From contig NZ_LT896716.1 of the NCBI RefSeq assembly GCF_900187405.1, positions 992,001 through 1,056,000 on the forward strand: 64,000 bases of DNA, read 5' to 3'. The translations under genes were made by a program, and so were the position numbers. The notes under the pieces are model-generated. The model made no database searches. It had not been told where the DNA came from and worked only from the letters and a program-made list of their open reading frames with translations. Below are positions 13,233-34,366 of this stretch, in pieces. The DNA is from Geobacter sp. DSM 9736. GTDB lineage: Bacteria; Desulfobacterota; Desulfuromonadia; Geobacterales; Geobacteraceae. Within the stretch, counting starts at the first letter, position 1. Each line of letters opens with the position of its first letter.

Positions 13233-13733
13233 CTATGATTTCTTCTTTTTCGATGATGCACGTCCTGCCTTAGCCGGTTTTTCAGGCTGCGATTTACGCG
13301 ACTTCAGCTTGGAGGCCCTTATTTCGCGAGCTTTAGCAAGATTTTCCGCAAGTCCTCGATCCTGGGCCATCTGTCTTCGCGCTTCTGAAAAGTTTTTTGC
13401 CGTCAGGGCTTGGCTCCGGGGGATCCCGAACTGTTTCCTGTATTCACCCGGCTTCATGTTGTGCACCCTGCCGAGGTGTCTGGTAAGGGTCTTCATGCCT
13501 CCCTTGCCGCAAATCATGCAGAAGACCTGATCCGACTGAAACGCCTTCTTAAAGGATACTGAAGGCCCCTTGGCTTCAGGAGGTTCAATCTGTTCCGGCA
13601 TTGTGCCTTCCAGTTTTTGCAGAGAGGAGTATACCTTCTGAATTTCCTGCAAGAGCTCTTCACTGGACATCTCTGACATTGATGCATGTGAAGATACTAT
13701 ACTCGCTGTCAATTCCAGCAGTGTCGGGGCCAT
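13233..13733 (-). CDS. MucR-family zinc-finger transcriptional regulator
   Basis: The 166-residue protein has the MucR/Ros domain: a zinc-finger-like unit FCMICGKGGMKTLTRHLGRVH (C-x2-C and two His, residues about 71-91) then the family block GEYRKQFGIPRSQALTAKNFSEARR. The N-terminal half is acidic and helical, possibly for oligomerisation; the C-terminal 35 residues are lysine-rich. MucR proteins are DNA-binding regulators or H-NS-like silencers of envelope, exopolysaccharide and motility genes in alphaproteobacteria; the target here is unknown. Start ATG at 13733 is preceded by AGGAGGAATTG. The gene is monocistronic, between tRNA-Ala and the divergent oxidoreductase operon, separated from it by a 172-base AT-rich gap. 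Confidence 0.9.
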   Translation of the reverse strand: MAPTLLELTASIVSSHASMSEMSSEELLQEIQKVYSSLQKLEGTMPEQIEPPEAKGPSVSFKKAFQSDQVFCMICGKGGMKTLTRHLGRVHNMKPGEYRKQFGIPRSQALTAKNFSEARRQMAQDRGLAENLAKAREIRASKLKSRKSQPEKPAKAGRASSKKKKS

Positions 13734-16922: not shown

Positions 16923-19838
16923 ATGAAAAACTTTTTTCGTTGCGCCGTTGTTTGCCTGCTTTTCTGTATGTCCCTTTCTTCTGCAGCCGCAGAACAAGCG
17001 ATCGGCTATGACGACCGTGCCGGTGACATGCGGCAGGGGGGACTTTTCGACGAGGCAGCAGGCCAGTTTCCACAGTTGGGGCAGCAAGAGGAAAGCATTT
17101 TCAATAGCGGGTCGAAGCCGTTCGCACCACAAAGGGGCGCCAATCCCGCTTTTCCTTCAGCCGGCCAAGGGGCGTCCCCTTTCGGTATTAGATCACAGGA
17201 AGAGGTGATACGGCAGTCCCAGGATCAGAAGCCTGCCTCACCAAAACCCAAAATCTTTCTCAAGGCTGAGGCTGGCGACGGACTCGCCTCTTTGGCGTGG
17301 ACCACGTCGGGTATACATCAGAAGCCGGGGATGGTCCAGCCGAAGTTTACCATTTATTACGGCATAGAAAGCGGCATATACAAAAAGAAGATAGAAGTTG
17401 GTTCCCTAACTGAGTTCAAGCTTCGCGGATTGAAGAACAGAGAGCTTTATTTCATCAAGGTTCAGGTGTCTATCAAGGGGGAGGATGCAGGCGATACTGG
17501 CGGTATGTCTGCCGATTTGGCGCTGTCTTCCAATGAAGTCAAAGTGATGCCCCTCCCGGAAGAAGATCTTGGGTCGATGCTCGAGCGCTCATTCAGGGAC
17601 AAGGGCGTCACACTGCAGGATAAGGCAGAGACGGAGGAATTCAAGCGTGACCTCAGGCAATTCGGCTACGAGTTTTTCAGGAACAGACTCAGTGGGGCTG
17701 TTTCCTCCGACGCTATTCCTGTTGGAGCCGACTATGTGATAGGACCCGGGGATACTTTGAAAGTCGAGCTCTGGGGGACGATTCAGGGCCGTCATGAATT
17801 GAGCGTTGATCGAAATGGTGAAATTTTTGTGCCGAGGGTTGGCAATGTGAAGGTCTGGGGGCTTAACTATGCCCAGGCGAAAGATACAATAGACAAGGCT
17901 ATTTCGCGCTATTTCAAGGGATATGAGCTGAATGTGACCCTTGGGCGCCTGCGCTCTATACAGGTATTTGTGGTCGGTGAAGTGGAAATGCCTGGGACCT
18001 ATGCAATTACCTCTCTTGGTACAGTAGTGAATGCCCTGTCCTTGGCAGGAGGACCTTCCAAAAACGGCAGCCTTCGCGGGATAACGGTCTCCCGCAGCGG
18101 GAAGGTCATTCAAGAGATCGACCTGTACGACATGTTCCTTGCCGGTGACCGCAGTAAGGACATTCGTCTCGAAAATGGCGATACGATTTTCGTGCCTGTC
18201 ATCGGTCCAGTGGCAGCAGTTGCAGGCGAAGTCAGACGCCCCGGCATTTACGAGCTGAAGGGTAAGACAACGCTCCCCAACCTTCTCTCAATGGCAGGAG
18301 GTATCTCAGCAGCCGGTGACCAGGGAAGAGTCCAGGTGGAGCGGATTGAAGGAAACAGCTCCAGGATCATTCTCGATTACGAGCCGAAGGGTCAGCGGTT
18401 CGAAGACTCCATGGCCGGAGTCGAAATGCAGGACCGGGATATGGTGAAGGTGTTTCCCGTACAAAAAGTTTTTCGCCGTGTCGTCAGTCTAGCCGGAAAC
18501 GTCGTGCGTCCTGGGGAATACCAGTTGAGGGAAGGAATGCGCATAAGTGACGTGCTTCCCTCATACGAGGCGCTTCTCCCCGACTCGTACCTCCATGCTG
18601 CCGAGATAGTCCGTTTGGTCCAGCCCGATTTTCACAAGGAAGCGGTTACTTTCAATCTCCAGAAGGCACTCGAGGGAGACCCGCAAGAAAACCTGCTCCT
18701 GCACGAACAGGATACGATCCGCATCTTCTCTCGAAACGAGATGGAAGAAGCTCCGGCCGTTGCGATCAATGGTCTCGTAGGGAAACCAGGCATCTATGAT
18801 TTCTATCCCAAAATGACGGTACGTGATCTCGTAACTGCAGCCGGCAATATAAAGAGGAACGCTTTCCTCGAAAGCGCCGAATTGACGAGGGTATCCATCG
18901 TCGGGGGAGGGGCGCGTACGATACGTACCAACTTCAACCTCGAAAAAGCCCTTAAAGGAGATCCTGAGCACAATCTCGCTCTGCAGCCTGACGATACGGT
19001 TATCGTGCGAGGGGTAGTCGAATGGGCTGAGTCGGTGGATCGTTTTGTGACCTTGGCGGGGGAGGTTAAGTTTCCTGGCGTCTATTCCATAACCAAAGGC
19101 GAGAAGCTCAGCTCGGTTCTCAAGAGAGCGGGAGGGTACACCGACAAAGCGTATCTGAAAGGTGCCAAGTTCACCCGGAAATCCGTACAGGAGATCCAGC
19201 AGAAGCGAATGAACGAGGTCATAGCCCGAACGGAGAACGAAATTCTGCAGAAGCAGGGTGAACTGTCCTCCCTTGCTTCATCCAAGGAAGAGCTGGAAGC
19301 AACAAAGGCCGCACTTGAAGGATTGATGAAGAGTCTTGAAAAGCTTAAGGGGATAAAGGCGGAGGGAAGGGTGGTTATGCGCCTAAGCTCCCTGGAAGAG
19401 CTGCCTAAAGGGCCATACGATCTGGAACTGACGGGGGGAGATGTCCTCGAGATTCCCCAGCGATCCAACGTCGTGAATGTAATGGGACAGGTATATAACC
19501 CGACTTCCTTCGTGTACGTTGCGAACCGAAACGTTTCTTCCTACCTGAAAAGTGCCGGCGGCCCGACACGTGACGCCGAAAAAGACGATATGTATGTCAT
19601 AGAGGCTGACGGTTCCGTGTCCAGCCGCCAGAACTCGTCGTTCGGCATTGCTTGGGATGATCACTCCCGCAGTTGGACCTTCGGCGGCTTTATGTCCCGC
19701 CCTCTGGAGCCGGGAGATACCCTTGTCGTGCCGCAGAAACTCGAAAGGATTGCCTGGATGAGAGAAATAAAGGACATTACAACCATTCTATCCCAGATAG
19801 CGCTTACCGCTGGCGTTATCCTAGCGGCCGGTTTATAG
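16923..19838 (+). CDS. SLBB-repeat polysaccharide export protein (Wza-like) with FN3-like domain
   Basis: The 971-residue exported protein starts with a signal peptide (MKNFFRCAVVCLLFCMSLSSAAA). Residues about 108-195 form a fibronectin-III-like strand pattern (AGDGLASLAWTTSG ... FTIYYGIESGIYKKKIEVG ... LKNRELYFIKVQVS). A Poly_export domain follows near 268 (ADYVIGPGDTLKVELWG), then about six SLBB repeats (GEVEMPGTYAI, GEVRRPGIYELKG, GNVVRPGEYQL, GLVGKPGIYDF, GEVKFPGVYSI, GQVYNPTSFVY). Residues about 758-811 are predicted coiled coil. The C-terminal 20 residues are hydrophobic (ILSQIALTAGVILAAGL). It should form the outer-membrane channel for an exported polysaccharide, partnered by the Wzz-type protein encoded 2 bases downstream. 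It is much longer than Wza (about 380 residues). Function in export is well supported by family; the glycan is unknown. Confidence 0.9.
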   Translation: MKNFFRCAVVCLLFCMSLSSAAAEQAIGYDDRAGDMRQGGLFDEAAGQFPQLGQQEESIFNSGSKPFAPQRGANPAFPSAGQGASPFGIRSQEEVIRQSQDQKPASPKPKIFLKAEAGDGLASLAWTTSGIHQKPGMVQPKFTIYYGIESGIYKKKIEVGSLTEFKLRGLKNRELYFIKVQVSIKGEDAGDTGGMSADLALSSNEVKVMPLPEEDLGSMLERSFRDKGVTLQDKAETEEFKRDLRQFGYEFFRNRLSGAVSSDAIPVGADYVIGPGDTLKVELWGTIQGRHELSVDRNGEIFVPRVGNVKVWGLNYAQAKDTIDKAISRYFKGYELNVTLGRLRSIQVFVVGEVEMPGTYAITSLGTVVNALSLAGGPSKNGSLRGITVSRSGKVIQEIDLYDMFLAGDRSKDIRLENGDTIFVPVIGPVAAVAGEVRRPGIYELKGKTTLPNLLSMAGGISAAGDQGRVQVERIEGNSSRIILDYEPKGQRFEDSMAGVEMQDRDMVKVFPVQKVFRRVVSLAGNVVRPGEYQLREGMRISDVLPSYEALLPDSYLHAAEIVRLVQPDFHKEAVTFNLQKALEGDPQENLLLHEQDTIRIFSRNEMEEAPAVAINGLVGKPGIYDFYPKMTVRDLVTAAGNIKRNAFLESAELTRVSIVGGGARTIRTNFNLEKALKGDPEHNLALQPDDTVIVRGVVEWAESVDRFVTLAGEVKFPGVYSITKGEKLSSVLKRAGGYTDKAYLKGAKFTRKSVQEIQQKRMNEVIARTENEILQKQGELSSLASSKEELEATKAALEGLMKSLEKLKGIKAEGRVVMRLSSLEELPKGPYDLELTGGDVLEIPQRSNVVNVMGQVYNPTSFVYVANRNVSSYLKSAGGPTRDAEKDDMYVIEADGSVSSRQNSSFGIAWDDHSRSWTFGGFMSRPLEPGDTLVVPQKLERIAWMREIKDITTILSQIALTAGVILAAGL

Positions 19839-19840
19839 CC

Positions 19841-21061
19841 ATGGGATCTGACAATAATATACAGAACAGAACAATGGCGGAAGAGGAAGAGATAAACCTT
19901 CTTGATCTTCTCAAGGTAGTGGTCAAACGGAAAATGCTGATTCTGAAGGCATGTGCCGTCGCTATTGCTGTTTCGGTGGTGTACAGCCTGACACTTCCGA
20001 ACATATATTCGGCTTCTGCCAAGGTCCTTCCTCCTCAAAAGGACTCTGGTGGTGGCTTGTCTGCTCTTCTCGGCCAAATGGGGGGGCTTGCTAGCTTGGC
20101 CGGCGGTATGGGCGGCTTGACGGGAAGCGGCGAACTTTTTTTGGGAATTCTCAAAAGCCGTTCGGTGGCGGATGCCGTCGTGAAACGTCTTGATCTGATT
20201 ACGATGTTCGAAGCTGAAACCGCTGACGATGCGCGCAGGACTCTTGCCGGAGCGGTACAGTCCAAGATAGGGAAGGACGGCATAATTACTGTCACTGCTG
20301 AACATACTGATCCGAAGGTTGCAGCGCAACTTGCCAATGCCATGGTAGAAGAGCTGGGAAAAAGAAGCGTGCAGCTCAACCTGACTAAAGCAGGAACCGA
20401 AAGGGTATTCCTCGAGAAACGGATTGATCTGGTCAAACAGGATCTAAAGCAGGCTGAGGATGCTTTAAGGTCATTTGCTGAACGAAACAAAACCATAAAG
20501 GTCGAGTCTCAGGCTTCGGCAACCATTTCGGGAGTCGCCAAGCTAAAAGCTGAGATTGCAGCTTTCGAAGTGCAACTGGCTGCGCTGCGAAGTTATCAAA
20601 CAGAAGAAAGCCCCGAGGTTAAGCTACTTAAGACCTCTGTCGCCAAGCTTAAAGGCCAGTTATCCACAGAAGAAGGGAGCGGTAGCGGCGGCTCGATACC
20701 GGGAGTCGGAAGAATACCGACCCTTGGACTCGACTATGCACGCCTTTTTCGTGAAGTGAAAATTCAGGAAGCAATATTCGAACAGCTCACGAAGCAGTAT
20801 GAAGCTGCGAAACTGATGGAGGCAAAGGACGCTTCCTCGCTCCAAGTGCTGGATGAAGCCGTAGTCCCAACAATAAAGAGTAAACCTAAACGATCCATTA
20901 TAGTAATACTTACCACCGTGACGGCCTTTGTCCTCGCCGTTTTTTTGGCTTTTCTCCTGGAGTACTTTGAAAAAATGCATCCGGATGATCGTGCTCGGTG
21001 GCAGGAAATAAAGAGCAGTATCGGCATCATGCGCAGAAAATCACTCCCTTATGATCAGTAA
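19841..21061 (+). CDS. Wzz/GumC-type polysaccharide chain-length protein
   Basis: A 406-residue inner-membrane protein with the Wzz topology: an acidic N-terminus, first membrane helix at about 33-55 (MLILKACAVAIAVSVVYSL), a large periplasmic coiled-coil part, and a second helix at about 352-374 (VILTTVTAFVLAVFLAFLLEY). A glycine-rich stretch after the first helix (LLGQMGGLASLAGGMGG) is unusual but is seen in relatives. No tyrosine-kinase domain is attached. The ATG at 19841 is only two bases after the exporter stop; the open frame back to 19673 overlaps the exporter. The 3' end overlaps the next gene by 11 bases. Confidence 0.88.
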   Translation: MGSDNNIQNRTMAEEEEINLLDLLKVVVKRKMLILKACAVAIAVSVVYSLTLPNIYSASAKVLPPQKDSGGGLSALLGQMGGLASLAGGMGGLTGSGELFLGILKSRSVADAVVKRLDLITMFEAETADDARRTLAGAVQSKIGKDGIITVTAEHTDPKVAAQLANAMVEELGKRSVQLNLTKAGTERVFLEKRIDLVKQDLKQAEDALRSFAERNKTIKVESQASATISGVAKLKAEIAAFEVQLAALRSYQTEESPEVKLLKTSVAKLKGQLSTEEGSGSGGSIPGVGRIPTLGLDYARLFREVKIQEAIFEQLTKQYEAAKLMEAKDASSLQVLDEAVVPTIKSKPKRSIIVILTTVTAFVLAVFLAFLLEYFEKMHPDDRARWQEIKSSIGIMRRKSLPYDQ

Positions 21062-22256
21062 CGGTACGTCAGGAAGATACTTCCAGCTTCCGGCCTGGAC
21101 TTTCCTGATATGCTGGATTGTCGGGTTAACGCTCTTATCACTCGTTCCATCTCCTCCGACACCGAATGTGGGGTTCCTCTCCTGGGACAAGTTTCAGCAT
21201 GCCGCTGCATTCGCCGTGTTGACGCTGCTTATTGCATTTTCCCTCGGTGAATGTGTCGCCGGCAGAACCCGCCGCTGGGCTTACGCGGCACTATTTGCAA
21301 TCGGATACGGCGCCGGCATCGAGATCGCCCAAGAGCTGTTTACTGTCACCAGGACGGCGGAATGGGGGGATCTTGTTGCTGATTTTGTGGGAGCAGGTTC
21401 GGTGGCCGTATCTGTAATGATTACAACAGCTCGGCCGAAGCGCAACCACCCCGCATGCATCGTTGGTCTTTCGGTGCTGCTTCTGACGGCAACGACGGTG
21501 CATGCCGAGGTTCCAAAGTTTTTCAACCTCTCCACAGTAAAGCGGGAGGCTGTCCGTATTAGGTCGGAAGCGGGTGAACTGGTCTCCTATCCGCTTGATA
21601 CCGAAGACGGAGGGGGATGGTGGATGCTTGCCGCCGCCGGCGCCACCGGACTTACATATCTTCTCGACTACGACATCAGGGACCGGGTTCGTGAACGCAA
21701 AAGCTCTTCACTGGACAAGGCTGCAAAGGTGGGGAGTGCTATCGGTAACCCGTTCGCTCATCTCGGGGTCGCCGCCGCTTTCTATGTCGGAGGGGCAGTG
21801 GCCGACTCTCCCAAATACCGGGAGATGGGAGAAATGCTCGGGGAGGCGGCGCTCTTGGCCGACGCCTCCACCCTTTTCCTTAAACAGATTATCGGCAGGG
21901 GACGACCTCTCGTAACGGAAGACAAGGGAAGTTTCAGGCCGCTCCACTTCAGGTCCGATTACGATTCCCTCCCCTCCATGCATACGTCCAGCTCGTTTGC
22001 CATGGCTTCGATTCTTGCGGCTGCCAGCGAAAGCTGGCTCACCAAGCTTCTCTACTACGGTTCAGCCACCTTCGTAGGGTTTTCCCGGGTCTATCAGGAC
22101 AAGCACTGGGCAAGTGATATCGTCCTTGGTGCAGCAATCGGGGAGTTGTGCGGGAGGGTCGTGATGGAGACGCATGTGAGGAAGGAAAAAGCTTTTTTTC
22201 TCTCCCCCGCTGTTTCGGGGGATGTCGTCACGCTGACGTTCGTCAGCCGATGGTAG
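21051..22256 (+). CDS. fused VanZ-like and PAP2 phosphatase membrane protein
   Basis: A 401-residue membrane protein with two parts. Residues 13-125 have the VanZ pattern (LSWDKFQHAAAFAVL, IEIAQELF, GDLVADFVGAGS). Residues about 185-370 are a type 2 phosphatidic acid phosphatase with all three motifs: K278-x6-R285-P286 (KQIIGRGRP), PSMHTS at 308-313, and S345-R346-x5-H352-x3-D356. Between them, residues 135-152 look like an internal signal peptide with an Ala-x-Ala end (TVHA then EVPKFF), as if a secreted PAP2 protein had been joined to VanZ. PAP2 enzymes release phosphate from lipid phosphates such as undecaprenyl diphosphate. It overlaps the Wzz-type gene by 11 bases, so a role in polysaccharide lipid-carrier recycling is plausible inference. 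Confidence 0.85.
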   Translation: MISNGTSGRYFQLPAWTFLICWIVGLTLLSLVPSPPTPNVGFLSWDKFQHAAAFAVLTLLIAFSLGECVAGRTRRWAYAALFAIGYGAGIEIAQELFTVTRTAEWGDLVADFVGAGSVAVSVMITTARPKRNHPACIVGLSVLLLTATTVHAEVPKFFNLSTVKREAVRIRSEAGELVSYPLDTEDGGGWWMLAAAGATGLTYLLDYDIRDRVRERKSSSLDKAAKVGSAIGNPFAHLGVAAAFYVGGAVADSPKYREMGEMLGEAALLADASTLFLKQIIGRGRPLVTEDKGSFRPLHFRSDYDSLPSMHTSSSFAMASILAAASESWLTKLLYYGSATFVGFSRVYQDKHWASDIVLGAAIGELCGRVVMETHVRKEKAFFLSPAVSGDVVTLTFVSRW

Positions 22257-22276: not shown

Positions 22277-22963
22277 ATGCTTGCGGCGGTCATTTTCGAT
22301 TTTGACGGGATCATTGTGGACACCGAGCCAATACACTACAGGGCGTTCCAGGAGGTGCTCGTTCCTCTTGGTCTGGGTTACCCCTGGACGGATTATCTCG
22401 ACCGGTATATCGGCTTCGATGACCGTGACGCCTTTCGTGAAGCTTTTCGTGCACGTGGGGAATCTTTATCCGAGGATCATCTATACCAGCTCATCGGCGA
22501 GAAGGCGCGTGCTTTCAACCGGGTAATATCCTCCGGAGTCGAACCATATCCGGGTGTTGTGGAACTGATACTTTCACTTGTTGAAACGGTCCCGGTGGCG
22601 CTGTGCAGCGGAGCATTGCGCTCCGACATCGCCCCGATTCTGCAGCAGCTCAAACTTACGAATGCTTTCGGTGTAATCGTTACTGCCGATGATGTCCCGA
22701 CCAGTAAACCAGATCCGGCAAGTTACCGCCTCGCTTTGCAAAGGCTCATATCGCGGTTTCCGGATAGTAGTATATCTGCTGAGTCAAGCATCGCCATCGA
22801 GGATACTCCTGCAGGAATCGCCTCCGCTCGGGGTGCGGGTCTTCAGGTGCTGGGGGTGACGAACAGTTATCCCGCCGATAAGCTCAGTGGAGCGTGCAAA
22901 GTAGTTGAGACCTTGGCGGGCATAGATTATCCGGAGCTGAACAGCCTCCTTTCCCGCCCTTGA
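22277..22963 (+). CDS. HAD-family phosphatase (beta-phosphoglucomutase-like)
   Basis: The 228-residue protein has the HAD nucleophile motif FDFDGIIVDTEPIHYRAF at the N-terminus, the cap domain typical of the phosphoglucomutase/phosphoglycolate phosphatase subfamily, motif II (ALCSGA), the lysine motif (TSKPDPASYRLAL) and the acidic motif IEDTPAGIASARGAG. Substrate not predictable; sugar phosphates are common. Its stop codon shares one base with the hrpB start (TGATG), so it is translationally coupled to hrpB. It is 20 bases after the VanZ-PAP2 gene, extending that operon. Confidence 0.85.
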   Translation: MLAAVIFDFDGIIVDTEPIHYRAFQEVLVPLGLGYPWTDYLDRYIGFDDRDAFREAFRARGESLSEDHLYQLIGEKARAFNRVISSGVEPYPGVVELILSLVETVPVALCSGALRSDIAPILQQLKLTNAFGVIVTADDVPTSKPDPASYRLALQRLISRFPDSSISAESSIAIEDTPAGIASARGAGLQVLGVTNSYPADKLSGACKVVETLAGIDYPELNSLLSRP

Positions 22964-25482
22964 TGCAGACCCTTCCCATTCAGCAAATCCTCCCCGAAAT
23001 CAGCGCTGCGCTTTCTTCACACCCGGTCGTCATAGTTCATGCTCCCCCCGGCGCAGGAAAGACTACCTGCGTCCCGCTGGCGTTGCTTAACGCACCATTC
23101 CTGTCTTCACGCAAAAGAATCGTGATGCTCGAACCGCGCCGCCTTGCAGCTACCAATGCCGCACGCTGGATGGCCTCGCGACTCGGAGAGGAAGTCGGGA
23201 ATACCGTAGGCTACACCATACGTTTCGACAGAAAGATATCCTCCTCTAGCCGTATCGAGGTTGTCACCGAGGGGATACTTACGCGTCGCCTCCAGGATGA
23301 TCCGTTTCTCGATAACGTAGGCATCGTTATATTCGATGAATTTCACGAGCGCAGTATTCATACTGATGCTTCTCTCGCTCTCTGCCGCGACGTACAGCAA
23401 GGTCTTCGAGAAGACCTGAAAATAGTCATTATGTCAGCGACCCTCGATTGTGAACCCCTTGCGAGCCTACTTGGTGGCGCTCCAATCCTTTCGAGCCCTG
23501 GACGAACCTTTCCGGTTGAGATCCGTTACCTGGAAGACAAGGCGACGACTGGCATAGCTGAGGCAACTGCCGCGGGGGTGCGCCTCGCCTTGCGGGAGAC
23601 GGAAGGTGATGTACTGGTCTTTCTACCCGGAATGGCTGAGATCACAAAGTGTCAGCAGTTGATCAATGCTGAGGATTTCAGGGAACCGCTCCTCACTCTT
23701 CCCCTCTACGGCGACCTCCCATTTGCAGCCCAGGAGCGGGCGATTCTGCCCGGGAACGTACGCAAGGTGGTCCTGGCCACCAACATCGCTGAAACAAGCC
23801 TCACGATCGAGGGGGTGAGTGTGGTGGTCGATAGCGGATGGTACAGGCAACTCCGCTTCGATCCAGTTACCGGCCTCAACAGGCTTCAGACAGTACGGAT
23901 TTCCTCAGCCTCTGCTGAACAACGCTGCGGCAGGGCCGGCCGACTCGGCCCTGGCATCTGTTACAGGTTATGGGACGAGCATACTCAGCGAACACTCCTG
24001 CCTTTTTCTCCTCCCGAGATCAGGACTGCCGACCTTGCTCCACTTGCCCTTGAGCTTGCAAAATGGGGTGTAAACGATCCGGACAGCCTTACCTGGCTCG
24101 ATCCTCCGCCGGTATCTGCTCTTGCCGAAGGGAGGAAGCTCCTAATGGCGCTGGGTGCGCTTGACGCGAATGGAGGAATGACTTCCAGAGGCAAGGAAAT
24201 GGCAGCGCTCCCTGTTCATCCCCGGCTGGCTCATCTGTTGCTGGAGGGCAAGGATCGAGGAATGCCTGGAGTGGCGTCTGATCTTGCTGCAATTCTTTCC
24301 GAACGGGATATCTTTCGCGGGGGCTCCACCAAGACGATTACGACAAGCGAGAGTGACTTGACTGACCGTCTCGATGCTTTGATCTGCTGGCGGGAAAAAC
24401 GCTCTTCCATCGGCCTTGACGAACAGGCGTGCAGGATAGTGGACAGGGTTGCGACGTCATTTCGCCGATTACTGAAGGATCGGGAGGAGGTGGCTGCTGC
24501 CTCTTCTGAAATCGTGGGAATACTGGCAGCATCAGCTTTCCCCGACAGAATAGGTTTGCTGCGTTCTGCAGGTGGTGACCGGTACCTGCTCGCGAACGGC
24601 AGGGGTGCCAGGTTGTCCGGGCGGAGTGCGGTGAGAGGGGCGAAGTATTTGGTAGCCGTGGCAGTGGACGCGGGAGAGGGGGGTGAGGGTTTGATTCACT
24701 TGGCTACCATTCTGGAAGAGGCGAGCTTTCGCAGAGAGTTTTCCCCATTAATTGTTCGACAGAGGGTGGTGCGCTGGGATAGTGAAGAGGGAAGGGTGGT
24801 GGCCCGGGAGGAGGAGAGATATCTTTCCCTGACTCTCGGTTATTCCCCTGTGGTCCCTTCCGCCGATGAGGCACTTGTCGCAGTGATCGAAGGAATACGC
24901 CGTGAGGGGCTATCGATCCTTGCCTGGAATCAGCGGGCGTCACTTTTCCGGGATCGGATGAAATTTCTCTCCGCTTTCTTCCCCGATGACGGTTGGCCTG
25001 ATTTTTCGGAGGAACATCTTCTGCGGACCGTCGAGGAATGGCTTGGACCGTGGCTTTCGGGGGTGAGATCCCGTAGCGACCTTTCAAGATTAGACCTGCT
25101 CTCCCCCCTGCAGGGGCTTCTCGACTGGGAGCAGTTGAAGATGCTGGATGAGGGGGCACCCCCCCATATACAAGTGCCAAGCGGAGCGAAGATTCCTCTG
25201 CAATACGGTGCCGATGGACCCCCTGTTCTGGCCGTGAAGCTCCAGGAGATGTTCGGACTGGGGGAGACGCCGACCGTTGGGTGGGGAAGAGTGCCGGTGA
25301 TTCTGCACTTGCTGTCGCCAGCTCGCCGTCCACTTCAGGTGACTCAGGATCTCAAAAATTTCTGGAATACGACATATCAGGACGTTAAGAAAGAGATGAA
25401 GGGCCGATATCCGAAGCATCCATGGCCTGACGATCCCTGGCGGGCGTTGCCGACACGTCATGTGTCTAAACTTCGTAAATAA
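22963..25482 (+). CDS. hrpB: ATP-dependent RNA helicase HrpB
   Basis: The 839-residue DEAH-box helicase has Walker A (HAPPGAGKTTCVPLALL), a DEFHERS box (IVIFDEFHERSIHTD, family DEAH variant), motif III (IMSATLD), motif V region (ATNIAETSLTIEGV) and motif VI (SSASAEQRCGRAGRLGPG), followed by the HA2-type domain and the HrpB C-terminal domain (RYPKHPWPDDPW). Bacterial HrpB has a poorly defined cellular role. The ATG at 22963 overlaps the previous stop. The gene converges on the M23 peptidase gene with 9 bases between stops. Confidence 0.94.
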   Translation: MQTLPIQQILPEISAALSSHPVVIVHAPPGAGKTTCVPLALLNAPFLSSRKRIVMLEPRRLAATNAARWMASRLGEEVGNTVGYTIRFDRKISSSSRIEVVTEGILTRRLQDDPFLDNVGIVIFDEFHERSIHTDASLALCRDVQQGLREDLKIVIMSATLDCEPLASLLGGAPILSSPGRTFPVEIRYLEDKATTGIAEATAAGVRLALRETEGDVLVFLPGMAEITKCQQLINAEDFREPLLTLPLYGDLPFAAQERAILPGNVRKVVLATNIAETSLTIEGVSVVVDSGWYRQLRFDPVTGLNRLQTVRISSASAEQRCGRAGRLGPGICYRLWDEHTQRTLLPFSPPEIRTADLAPLALELAKWGVNDPDSLTWLDPPPVSALAEGRKLLMALGALDANGGMTSRGKEMAALPVHPRLAHLLLEGKDRGMPGVASDLAAILSERDIFRGGSTKTITTSESDLTDRLDALICWREKRSSIGLDEQACRIVDRVATSFRRLLKDREEVAAASSEIVGILAASAFPDRIGLLRSAGGDRYLLANGRGARLSGRSAVRGAKYLVAVAVDAGEGGEGLIHLATILEEASFRREFSPLIVRQRVVRWDSEEGRVVAREEERYLSLTLGYSPVVPSADEALVAVIEGIRREGLSILAWNQRASLFRDRMKFLSAFFPDDGWPDFSEEHLLRTVEEWLGPWLSGVRSRSDLSRLDLLSPLQGLLDWEQLKMLDEGAPPHIQVPSGAKIPLQYGADGPPVLAVKLQEMFGLGETPTVGWGRVPVILHLLSPARRPLQVTQDLKNFWNTTYQDVKKEMKGRYPKHPWPDDPWRALPTRHVSKLRK

Positions 25483-31555: not shown

Positions 31556-34366
31556 CTATAAGAGCATGACACCCAGTATGAGGAGAGCTTGAGCTATCCC
31601 CATCACAAATTTCAGAAGAGGGTTCCTTTTTTCTTGTTGCTCGACGGGAACGACAGCGAAATCATCAGGAGGATTTTTAAGTTCTCTGTCATCATAGGGG
31701 GGTAAGGGTTCGGCAGGGGAAGAAGGGTCGAGGGGGGGAGTTGCCTTTGCAACCACCTTTTCCTGGGTGGAATCGTGCACTGTTTCTACCAACTCATTTC
31801 CCAGCAGGAGATCTTCTGCAGCGAATCTTTTAGGGGAAGGGGTAACAGTCAATCGTACAGAGCGTGGAATCTCACTGTTGCCCGATCTGTCCAGGCTCCA
31901 ATAAGTAAGCACATAGTCCCCCTTTGAAACGACACTGAATGGTACGCCGTCGGTTTCGACGCTATGTCCCGACAATTGATAATGAATCGCGCGCACGCCC
32001 GAAAGATTATCTGTCGCCGTAGGGGTAATAACCGTCTCTGTTTCGATATGCATTACCCCGTCGAGTTCACGCTTCGGTGTCCCGATACCCATCTCAGAGA
32101 GAGGAGGTGTTTTGTCCACGACTACGGAAACGGTTTGTACCGGCTCTTCATTTCCGCCTTTATCTTTAGAGCGGAAATGTAGAAGGAATTTACCTTCTTC
32201 CGAGAAGGTCAAGGGTTTGCTGTACTCCATCCAGCTCCCGTCTCCCAACCGGTACTCCGTCTTCGACACCTCCCAGGGCGTTCCTATCCCCTGTAGGGAT
32301 AAAGATTCCCGGTCCTGCAGGAACACATTTCCTTTGACCGGTGCCGGTTCACTGGTCCGACGTAACAAAGTGGAAGGAGGAGTATCATTGACCGTCACCA
32401 GAACCGAATACGGATGTTCCTGATTGCCTACGTTGTCAGTGCTGCGAAAATCCAGAAGATGTTTTCCAGGGGGGGTGACTGTAAATGGGGCGTATGGCTT
32501 CCATTCCCCGCCGTCCAGGCGGTATTCGGTAGATGAGATGCCTGACTCCGGGTCTGTAGCATGAAGTGTAAAGCGAGTGCTGGTCGTAACATGGAGCATC
32601 TCGTCTTTCTTCATTTTCGGAGATCCGACCTCCAGCTTTGTGGCGGGAGGGGTCTTGTCCAGAGCAATAGTTATTTTTTTCGGTTCTTCGCTATTTCCTA
32701 CGTTATCTATGCTTCGATAGAAGATGTCCTGTCGGTCGCCCTGCGTGATCCGGAAAGGCTCGAAGGACCGCCATTGTCCGCTTCCTATTCGATATTCAAC
32801 CAGCCGCACGCCTGATAAAGCGTCTGTCGCAGTGAGGCTGATGCTGGTGTCACCTTTGCGGTAAATTGTTGCTCCCGGTTCGGCTTTTTTGCCATCCAAA
32901 AGTGCAGTGGTAACCGGGGGGGTAGCATCGACCGTTACATGCTGGCTTTTCGATACTTCAGCGTTACCGATGGCGTCGATGGTGCGGTACTCGATAACAT
33001 GTTTTCCTTCCGGTTCGATTGTAAAAGGCTTGTACTCGGTCCATCTTCTGTTGTCAATGCGGTACTCGGTTCTTCCGACTCCGGCAACTGGGTTGCTGGA
33101 GCTTAACGTAAAGCTGGTGAGAGGAGATGCATAGAGCATCCTGTTATTCGCGGCTTCAAACTTGGGATTTCCGACTGATATCGAAGTTGCCGGTGGTTTC
33201 GCGTCGATCAGCACTCGCAGGGTCTTGGGTGTCTCCTTGTTCCCAAGCTTGTCGGTGCTTCTGAAGCGAACAACATGCGTACCTTCGCTGCCGATGCTGA
33301 AACGAGTTGCCTGCTCCCATGGCCCTTCGTCGATCTGGTATTCTGTCAAGGCTATACCGGATGCAGAGCCTGAGGCAAAAAGGGTGAAAATGGTTGATGG
33401 CGATGCGATAAATATTTCATCAGATCCGACCCGGTACGGAGAAGAAAGGGTGAGGGCAGTGACGGGCGCTGAGTTCTGAACAATAAAAGAAAACTTTTGC
33501 TCACTCTCCCGATTGCCTGCACGGTCGGTCGAGAAGCAATAAACCGTATGCATGCCATCGCTGAGACCGGAAAGACTTATGGGTGCGCGATATTGAAGCC
33601 AATCACCGGTGCCGTCGAGGCGGCACTCGATTCCGGAAATATCCGATGCTGCCATACCGGTGTCTTCTGCTGTAGCCGTTACAAGGGCATCTCCTTTAAC
33701 ATACACAGTACCTTCATTGTCCGAATAATGGGGGGCTGCATTCATCGATGTTGCAGGTGGCGTGGTGTCGATTAAGAAATCAATGTGAAGCTGGGTTGCA
33801 TTTCCAGCGGTATCTTCCGCTGAAATATCCAACAAGTAGCGACCTTCACCGGAGATGGCGGTATCGGGTGCTAAATCATGCCCATTGAGCAGCATTGTCT
33901 TCTTCTTGAGGTTTCTGTCCCTGATTGTAATACGAGGAGTTATGTCGCGGCTATAGAACCTATTGTGTTCGACGTTATGAACTGTAACGACAGGAGGGGA
34001 AGAATCGATCGTGAAGCGGATAGTCTGTTCAACCTCTTTACCGTTATCTCCAACGGCTACTGCCCGCAAAACATAATCACCTTCATCGTGTATAGGTGAC
34101 GAGTCATACGGTTTGTCATTGAGAACGATGCTGGTAATTCTTCCTTGGCTGACCGAGATTGTGGGCCGAACGGAGTCTTTGTAATGGGAGCTCTCCGCAA
34201 TCCCGTCAAATAATATGATGGGGGAAGGAGGTTTCGCCGGAGGCTCATCGGTTGTTGAGAAGGCGGTGAGGGGCGCTGCTAGGCAATGGGTAGCGGAAAA
34301 TATGCAGAGAGCAAGAAAAAGTGCGTTTGATATGACACGGACTCGATTACCCACGAACCTATCCAC
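31556..34366 (-). CDS. large Ig-like repeat (OmpL47-type) membrane-anchored periplasmic protein
   Basis: A 936-residue protein with a signal peptide (hydrophobic at about 12-30, ending CLAA), about nine tandem units of 85-100 residues from residue ~60 to ~880, and a single C-terminal membrane helix in the last 20 residues (VMGIAQALLILGVMLL). Each unit starts near TPPATS and ends GNxE...V.VD, with the core LTEYRIDxGxWxxYxPFxIxxEGxHxxxFRSTD, the pattern of OmpL47/Ig-like beta-sandwich repeats. Topology suggests an inner-membrane-anchored, periplasm-filling rod. The start is uncertain: the frame opens with GTG at 34366 and other GTG codons follow. The divergent/adjacent genes do not reveal a function. 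Confidence 0.8.
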   Translation of the reverse strand: MDRFVGNRVRVISNALFLALCIFSATHCLAAPLTAFSTTDEPPAKPPSPIILFDGIAESSHYKDSVRPTISVSQGRITSIVLNDKPYDSSPIHDEGDYVLRAVAVGDNGKEVEQTIRFTIDSSPPVVTVHNVEHNRFYSRDITPRITIRDRNLKKKTMLLNGHDLAPDTAISGEGRYLLDISAEDTAGNATQLHIDFLIDTTPPATSMNAAPHYSDNEGTVYVKGDALVTATAEDTGMAASDISGIECRLDGTGDWLQYRAPISLSGLSDGMHTVYCFSTDRAGNRESEQKFSFIVQNSAPVTALTLSSPYRVGSDEIFIASPSTIFTLFASGSASGIALTEYQIDEGPWEQATRFSIGSEGTHVVRFRSTDKLGNKETPKTLRVLIDAKPPATSISVGNPKFEAANNRMLYASPLTSFTLSSSNPVAGVGRTEYRIDNRRWTEYKPFTIEPEGKHVIEYRTIDAIGNAEVSKSQHVTVDATPPVTTALLDGKKAEPGATIYRKGDTSISLTATDALSGVRLVEYRIGSGQWRSFEPFRITQGDRQDIFYRSIDNVGNSEEPKKITIALDKTPPATKLEVGSPKMKKDEMLHVTTSTRFTLHATDPESGISSTEYRLDGGEWKPYAPFTVTPPGKHLLDFRSTDNVGNQEHPYSVLVTVNDTPPSTLLRRTSEPAPVKGNVFLQDRESLSLQGIGTPWEVSKTEYRLGDGSWMEYSKPLTFSEEGKFLLHFRSKDKGGNEEPVQTVSVVVDKTPPLSEMGIGTPKRELDGVMHIETETVITPTATDNLSGVRAIHYQLSGHSVETDGVPFSVVSKGDYVLTYWSLDRSGNSEIPRSVRLTVTPSPKRFAAEDLLLGNELVETVHDSTQEKVVAKATPPLDPSSPAEPLPPYDDRELKNPPDDFAVVPVEQQEKRNPLLKFVMGIAQALLILGVMLL

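Follow-up and report, generated by a model that had tools for sequence, protein, structure and literature searches.

VanZ is a widespread protein family, tied to glycopeptide resistance and without proven activity. A 2025 paper (PMC12419801) places VanZ in the lipocone superfamily and predicts a reaction at lipid head groups. The predicted active site has a conserved frame: helix 2 (H2) contributes a His, H3 a Glu, and H4 an Asp along with a Gly close to its end. In most membrane families, the active-site aperture faces the outer side. VanZ families are tied to Wzz and polysaccharide genes, and polyprenyl-linked sugars are the predicted substrates. Specifically, VanZ is predicted to cut or transfer the head groups of polyprenyl-diphosphate sugars. 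Among membrane PAP2 lipid phosphatases, those of known topology have the active site in the periplasm (PMC6748449). In E. coli, the Und-PP phosphatases PgpB and BacA are coupled to the polymerase PBP1B, both physically and kinetically; coupling to PgpB relieves PBP1B product inhibition (PMC6053597). The main text of PMC12419801 names fusions to RDD, signalling, and other domains, and a VanZ-PAP2 fusion is not among them. Similarly, we found no paper on such a fusion in the open-access literature, where absence proves little. Both families are already known; their combination, and its repeated formation, is new and is not described in the literature searched.

We analysed a stretch of 64,000 nucleotides from Geobacter sp. 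DSM 9736, hereafter the window. A first-pass annotation of this DNA reported VanZ and PAP2 domains in a single chain, encoded by a gene overlapping a Wzz-type gene. Both observations were confirmed. The chain is encoded in one frame, from the ATG at 21051 to the stop codon at 22254-22256, and comprises a VanZ domain, a signal-peptide-like segment, and a PAP2 domain with three motifs (Table 1). At the local base composition, the chance of an open frame this long is about 5e-7. The stop codon of the Wzz gene (TAA, 21059-21061) lies beyond the fusion start, so that 11 nt are shared. An AF2 model of the full chain (mean pLDDT 86.8, pTM 0.65) defines the domains well but not the linker. We tentatively read this gene as a fusion of two enzymes that may both act at one lipid-carrier step in a Geobacterales operon for polysaccharide export of the Wza/Wzz type, a reading that we place not far short of probable.

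Table 1. Features of the VanZ-PAP2 locus, in window coordinates.
Feature	Position	Strand	Basis
Poly_export/SLBB outer-membrane export protein (Wza-like), SLBB-rich, 971 aa	16923..19838	+	profile
Wzz/GNVR chain-length protein, 462 aa; overlaps fusion by 11 nt	19673..21061	+	profile
VanZ-PAP2 fusion gene, 401 aa	21051..22256	+	frame; NCBIfam and Pfam profiles
VanZ domain, residues 8-127, four helices	21072..21431	+	NCBIfam vanZ_1; AF2 helices; alignment of 40 VanZ
W45-D46-K47-F-Q-H50, start of helix 2; D46, K47, H50 invariant	21183..21200	+	40-VanZ alignment
E91xxQ94, R101, D107 invariant, helix 3 to start of helix 4	21321..21371	+	40-VanZ alignment
TAATG: out-of-frame TAA (21415-21417) abutting in-frame ATG 21417 (residue 123)	21415..21419	+	sequence; compared with overlaps in split relatives
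Signal-peptide-like segment, residues 135-152	21453..21506	+	sequence, alignment, hydropathy, AF2
PAP2 domain, helical core residues 160-379	21528..22187	+	Pfam PF01569; fold match to 5jki, 6ebu
PAP2 motif 1, K278xxxxxxR285P286	21882..21908	+	alignment
PAP2 motif 2, P308-S-M-H311	21972..21983	+	alignment
PAP2 motif 3, S345R346xxxxxH352xxxD356	22083..22118	+	alignment
Predicted C-terminal beta-hairpin, residues 382-399	22194..22247	+	AF2
HAD-family hydrolase, conserved downstream neighbour	22277..22963	+	profiles; loci of relatives
HrpB helicase, conserved downstream neighbour	22960..25482	+	profile; locus of relatives

The VanZ domain has a four-helix membrane core (residues 8-31, 45-68, 72-97, and 105-127), in agreement with hydropathy; an AF2 model with a mean pLDDT of 90 places the helices at 12-31, 45-68, 72-97, and 105-126. 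It scores 31.8 bits with NCBIfam vanZ_1, above the cut-off of 20, and 22.3 with Pfam PF04892, below the cut-off of 30.1. We aligned 40 VanZ sequences from split and fused forms, seven of them fused. Ten positions are invariant in all 40 (L31, D46, K47, H50, E91, Q94, R101, D107, A110, and G114). The lipocone-type polar set is present, as H50 (H2), E91 (H3), D107 (H4), and G114 near the end of H4. The residues compared with the VanZ-2 pattern are DKxxH in H2 and D107xxxD111 in H4 (N in some relatives). With the VanZ domain alone, Foldseek gave no match with an E better than 0.3, and the best Z of the fold comparison was 9.1, in the range of unrelated helical bundles; this search found no solved lipocone, such as PTDSS1, as a fold match. 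Basic residues are located at the N-terminus, in the loop between helices 2 and 3, and at the C-terminus, with few in the first loop. Stand-alone VanZ proteins have a mean of 3.2 K/R within their last 14 residues. From this pattern we infer that both ends of VanZ are cytoplasmic (N-in/C-in). Hence, the signal-like segment would cross from cytoplasm to periplasm. The DK..H/E..Q/R/D pocket would face the periplasm. Furthermore, since VanZ should end in the cytoplasm, joining another protein behind it need not alter topology.

For the PAP2 part, Pfam PF01569 matches residues 264-377 (E 1.9e-19; 70.2 bits, cut-off 27.2). The first-pass annotation was right that the full triad is kept, and all three motifs are complete in every fused protein aligned. 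The best fold matches are B. subtilis PgpB (5jki, Z 18.9, rmsd 3.2 over 184 residues) and Aquifex LpxE (6ebu, Z 18.3). By sequence, the nearest solved structures are LpxE (6ebu) and a class A acid phosphatase (9htz). Equivalog models score far under their thresholds (25.7, against a cut-off of 229, and 25.5, against 250). Hydrophobicity of the core helices is moderate, between that of LpxE and a class A acid phosphatase. Family medians are 0.6-1.3, where the usual membrane threshold is 1.6, and at most 9% of family members reach 1.6 in any one core helix. Note that the N-terminus of membrane PAP2 lipid phosphatases of known topology is cytoplasmic. Here, a signal peptide would set the PAP2 N-terminus outside, so six crossing core helices would turn the active site to the cytoplasm. 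Such an orientation would be at odds with the known PAP2 lipid phosphatases (PMC6748449). Because the helices are only moderately hydrophobic, our preferred, but unproven, arrangement is a periplasmic domain that is soluble or peripheral to the membrane. The fused gene is the only VanZ match in its genome, which also encodes two other PAP2 proteins and one BacA. Hence, the fusion is not the sole candidate Und-PP phosphatase there.

Residues 135-152 read ACIVGLSVLLLTATTVHA, followed by EV and preceded by ARPKRNHP. The segment is built from a basic stretch (128-132), a hydrophobic core, and V-H-A before E153. If uncleaved, it would be a fifth transmembrane helix. The AF2 pLDDT falls below 50 at residues 148-154. 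While the signal-like segment noticed at first pass is present, its reading needed correction. Split PAP2 proteins start with a signal peptide, typically ending A-x-A; in fused proteins, the equivalent segment stands between the domains, at the homologous place in the alignment. On this comparison, the internal segment is best explained by a once-separate PAP2 gene whose export signal was kept. The TAATG in Table 1, whose TAA is in the +1 frame relative to the fusion, is probably a fossil of a stop/start overlap between two genes. Since the TAA abuts the in-frame ATG, a single upstream indel suffices for the join. In the fused frame, residues 123-133 finish VanZ helix 4 and supply the basic cytoplasmic tail typical of stand-alone VanZ; they double as the n-region of the signal peptide. 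An internal start at M123 was discarded as the general source of the product: Met is missing at that position from several other fused proteins, and no good ribosome site precedes 21417. In the window itself such a start may still be used.

Searches covered 147 relatives, then 141 genomes from the order and a phylum sample of 395 genomes; about 100 loci were read. Among named records, related loci belong to Geobacteraceae and Desulfuromonadales. Gene order is conserved (SLBB exporter, Wzz, a variable slot, HAD, and HrpB) and the slot contains VanZ alone, PAP2 alone, both as neighbouring genes, or the fusion. At least 8 of the 141 genomes have fused genes (G000, which is the window, G023, G049, G052, G064, G070, G111, and G130). 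Adjacent pairs occur in at least 14 (G007, G009, G018, G028, G050, G053, G067, G073, G075, G077, G091, G093, G099, and G133). The search proposed at first pass, for single-chain and separate forms near Wzz, thus recovered both. Absence of the fusion from all relatives, and a frameshift joining two genes, had been raised as objections; at least seven other genomes are fused, and the join is not unique to this one. Outside the order, the phylum sample had no match spanning both parts. With starts picked by hand, the VanZ stop and PAP2 start overlap in 10 of 14 split pairs (as ATGA, TTGA, TGATG, or by up to about 16 nt), are at most 1 nt apart in three, and are separated by 23 nt in one. In the fused genus designated g16 (loci L036, L084, L085, L091, and L092), the interval from the SLBB protein to the fusion gave no match to the Wzz profile used. 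At locus L103, the order is rearranged, with PAP2 upstream of SLBB and Wzz.

Trees of PAP2, of VanZ, and of both joined each need four state changes. In the joined tree, fused rows fall in four places. The window is beside split G007 (92/92), fused G023 is sister to split G018 (100/99), the four g16 genomes group together (100/99), and G111 with G130 (95/89) is beside split G067 and G093. A single clade of all fused rows was rejected (AU p 2.6e-45), as was one of the fused subset from families f1 and f3 (p 1.2e-4). Since fused rows are not one clade, fusion or fission occurred repeatedly. Judged by these trees, it is shown that the VanZ and PAP2 parts were joined or split more than once.

No kinase domain match was found in the Wzz/GNVR protein by profile search. 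Among the window ORFs scanned there was no glycosyltransferase, Wzx, or Wzy, and the export operon (16923-22256) looks orphaned. Hence, the polymer must be made elsewhere. The function of HrpB is probably unrelated to VanZ-PAP2. Elsewhere in the window are a 936 aa protein with many matches to bacterial Ig-like domains (31556-34366, minus strand) and, close upstream of the region, a ROS/MUCR-type regulator (13233-13733, minus strand). Outside the slot, neighbours of VanZ and PAP2 genes are mixed (one Wzi, one DAGK, several SLBB exporters, and many housekeeping genes), with no further consistent functional clue among them. The Wzi case is another polysaccharide link, with the gene for this capsule-assembly protein immediately before that for a stand-alone VanZ (L131:3142-5325).

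How might the fused protein work? Starting on the cytoplasmic side, after the basic ARPKR, the signal-like segment would take the PAP2 domain to the periplasm. It would then either remain as a transmembrane helix or be cut after A152. According to the prediction in PMC12419801, VanZ would act on the head group of polymer-diphosphate-undecaprenol, by release or transfer. PAP2 would take a phosphate off the diphosphate left behind; this would recycle the carrier and lift product inhibition at the Wzz/Wza site. Fusing the two would fix a 1:1 ratio and closeness. Most simply, then, the VanZ-PAP2 pair beside Wzz and a Wza-like exporter may be a release-and-recycle unit. Consistent with such pairing, both sets of catalytic residues are kept in the fused proteins aligned. 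That the genes occur side by side, and fused, in separate lineages suggests that VanZ and PAP2 work together. Note that some genomes have VanZ alone or PAP2 alone in the slot, so neither needs the other there. Note also that adjacent overlapping genes fuse readily by one indel, and repeated fusion is therefore weaker evidence of coupling than is apparent.

The chain could also be a polyprotein, cut after A152 by signal peptidase I, so that VanZ stays in the membrane with the signal peptide as its tail and PAP2 is set free in the periplasm. This concerns maturation, with fusion only fixing the expression ratio, and is compatible with release-and-recycle chemistry. At the homologous site, position -1 is A, G, or S in 7 of 7 distinct fused proteins, a pattern with a chance of about 3e-4 given the linker composition, and the basic and hydrophobic stretches are preserved. 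In the f3 genus, the linker is only 9-31% identical, compared with 52-58% for VanZ and 62-76% for PAP2; a fast linker between conserved domains is how signal peptides evolve. The loss of AF2 confidence is exactly at this place. However, position -3 is F at locus L097, in the alignment used for the chance figure, and the small residues may be inherited rather than selected. At the junction, a crude, home-made signal score did not exceed the highest values from other parts of the fused chains, and was low for L084 and L085; because it failed to separate the junction from other hydrophobic ends, it was given no weight. In the open-access literature, we found no paper on bacterial polyproteins cut by signal peptidase. 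We consider such cleavage possible, if doubtful. Unlikely, in our estimation, is a full lipid-carrier polyprotein: one chain, split by signal peptidase at the inherited signal peptide, yielding a polymer-freeing enzyme and a carrier-recycling phosphatase at 1:1. If true, the PAP2 substrate should be the VanZ product, providing a direct test of VanZ chemistry.

It is somewhat improbable that PAP2 works on another periplasmic phosphate, with VanZ modifying the same envelope molecule and no recycling of carrier lipid. The substrate might be lipid A, as for LpxE, the phosphate terminus that the released polymer carries, or some other phosphate ester. The nearest solved sequences, and helices less hydrophobic than is typical of membrane helices, are in line with this, and a TelC-like cut by VanZ (PMC12419801) would yield polymer-diphosphate, fitting a periplasmic phosphatase. 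Conversely, the operon is for Wza/Wzz export, not lipid A, and the top fold by Z is PgpB, tied with LpxE. Fusion might instead be neutral, overlapping neighbours having been joined by chance indels without functional partnership. One base change at an ATGA or TGATG junction is enough, and the window retains its TAATG; either gene may be missing from the slot, and both families are also found apart at other places. Against this, fused forms last as a four-genome clade in which both sites are conserved and the linker evolves fast. Adjacent genes are also seen repeatedly (families f1 and f4), as are fused ones (f1, f3, and f4). We deem a purely neutral origin improbable. Finally, a sequencing or assembly indel could have joined two truly separate genes in the window, since one base between about 21350 and 21414 restores a VanZ end at TAA 21415 and a PAP2 start at ATG 21417. 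This VanZ end would shorten helix 4 and drop the basic tail of other VanZ proteins. Moreover, one of the seven other fused genomes (G111) is a single-contig assembly, as is the source genome of the window (3.96 Mb, 99.99% complete). An artefact is therefore very improbable.

Returning to two enzymes acting on one lipid-carrier step, the partnership bears on VanZ itself. The first-pass suggestion that the fusion is a clue to VanZ function remains plausible, but VanZ is no longer wholly unexplained, given its lipocone assignment in PMC12419801. A repeatedly overlapping or fused partner of known chemistry class, a phosphatase often acting on lipid phosphates, narrows the likely VanZ substrate to one leaving or using a phosphorylated lipid or glycan beside the Wza/Wzz exporter. 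The locus also shows how a gene that encodes a signal peptide can be joined to the end of a membrane protein whose C-terminus is cytoplasmic, leaving topology unchanged.

Among known systems, the coupling of PBP1B to PgpB and BacA (PMC6053597) likewise joins a polymer-making enzyme physically to a carrier-lipid phosphatase. Those are separate proteins of peptidoglycan synthesis, however, and the likeness to VanZ-PAP2 is in principle only. Class A acid phosphatases (PhoC/PhoN, 9htz) have the same layout, a helical PAP2 domain behind a signal peptide (fold Z 12-14), but the present helices are more hydrophobic. The signature of that class is GSYPSGHT, whereas motif 2 here is DSLPSMHTSSSFA (DSLPSMHT). 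PgpB and LpxE have the same three motifs and fold, at 17-22% identity. They differ from the present family, whose stand-alone members open with a signal peptide, and from the present protein, which has an extra amphipathic helix (160-182), a predicted C-terminal beta-hairpin, and weaker hydrophobic helices. For VanZ, the comparison is with PMC12419801. In the present domain, KxxH in H2 and DxxxD in H4 resemble the VanZ-2 pattern, although its DKxxH differs from the RKxxH of that subfamily, and H3 has ExxQ, assigned there to Skillet families. Shared with the lipocone VanZ families described in that paper are the four helices, the same invariant His, Glu, Asp, and Gly, and a context of Wzz and export genes.
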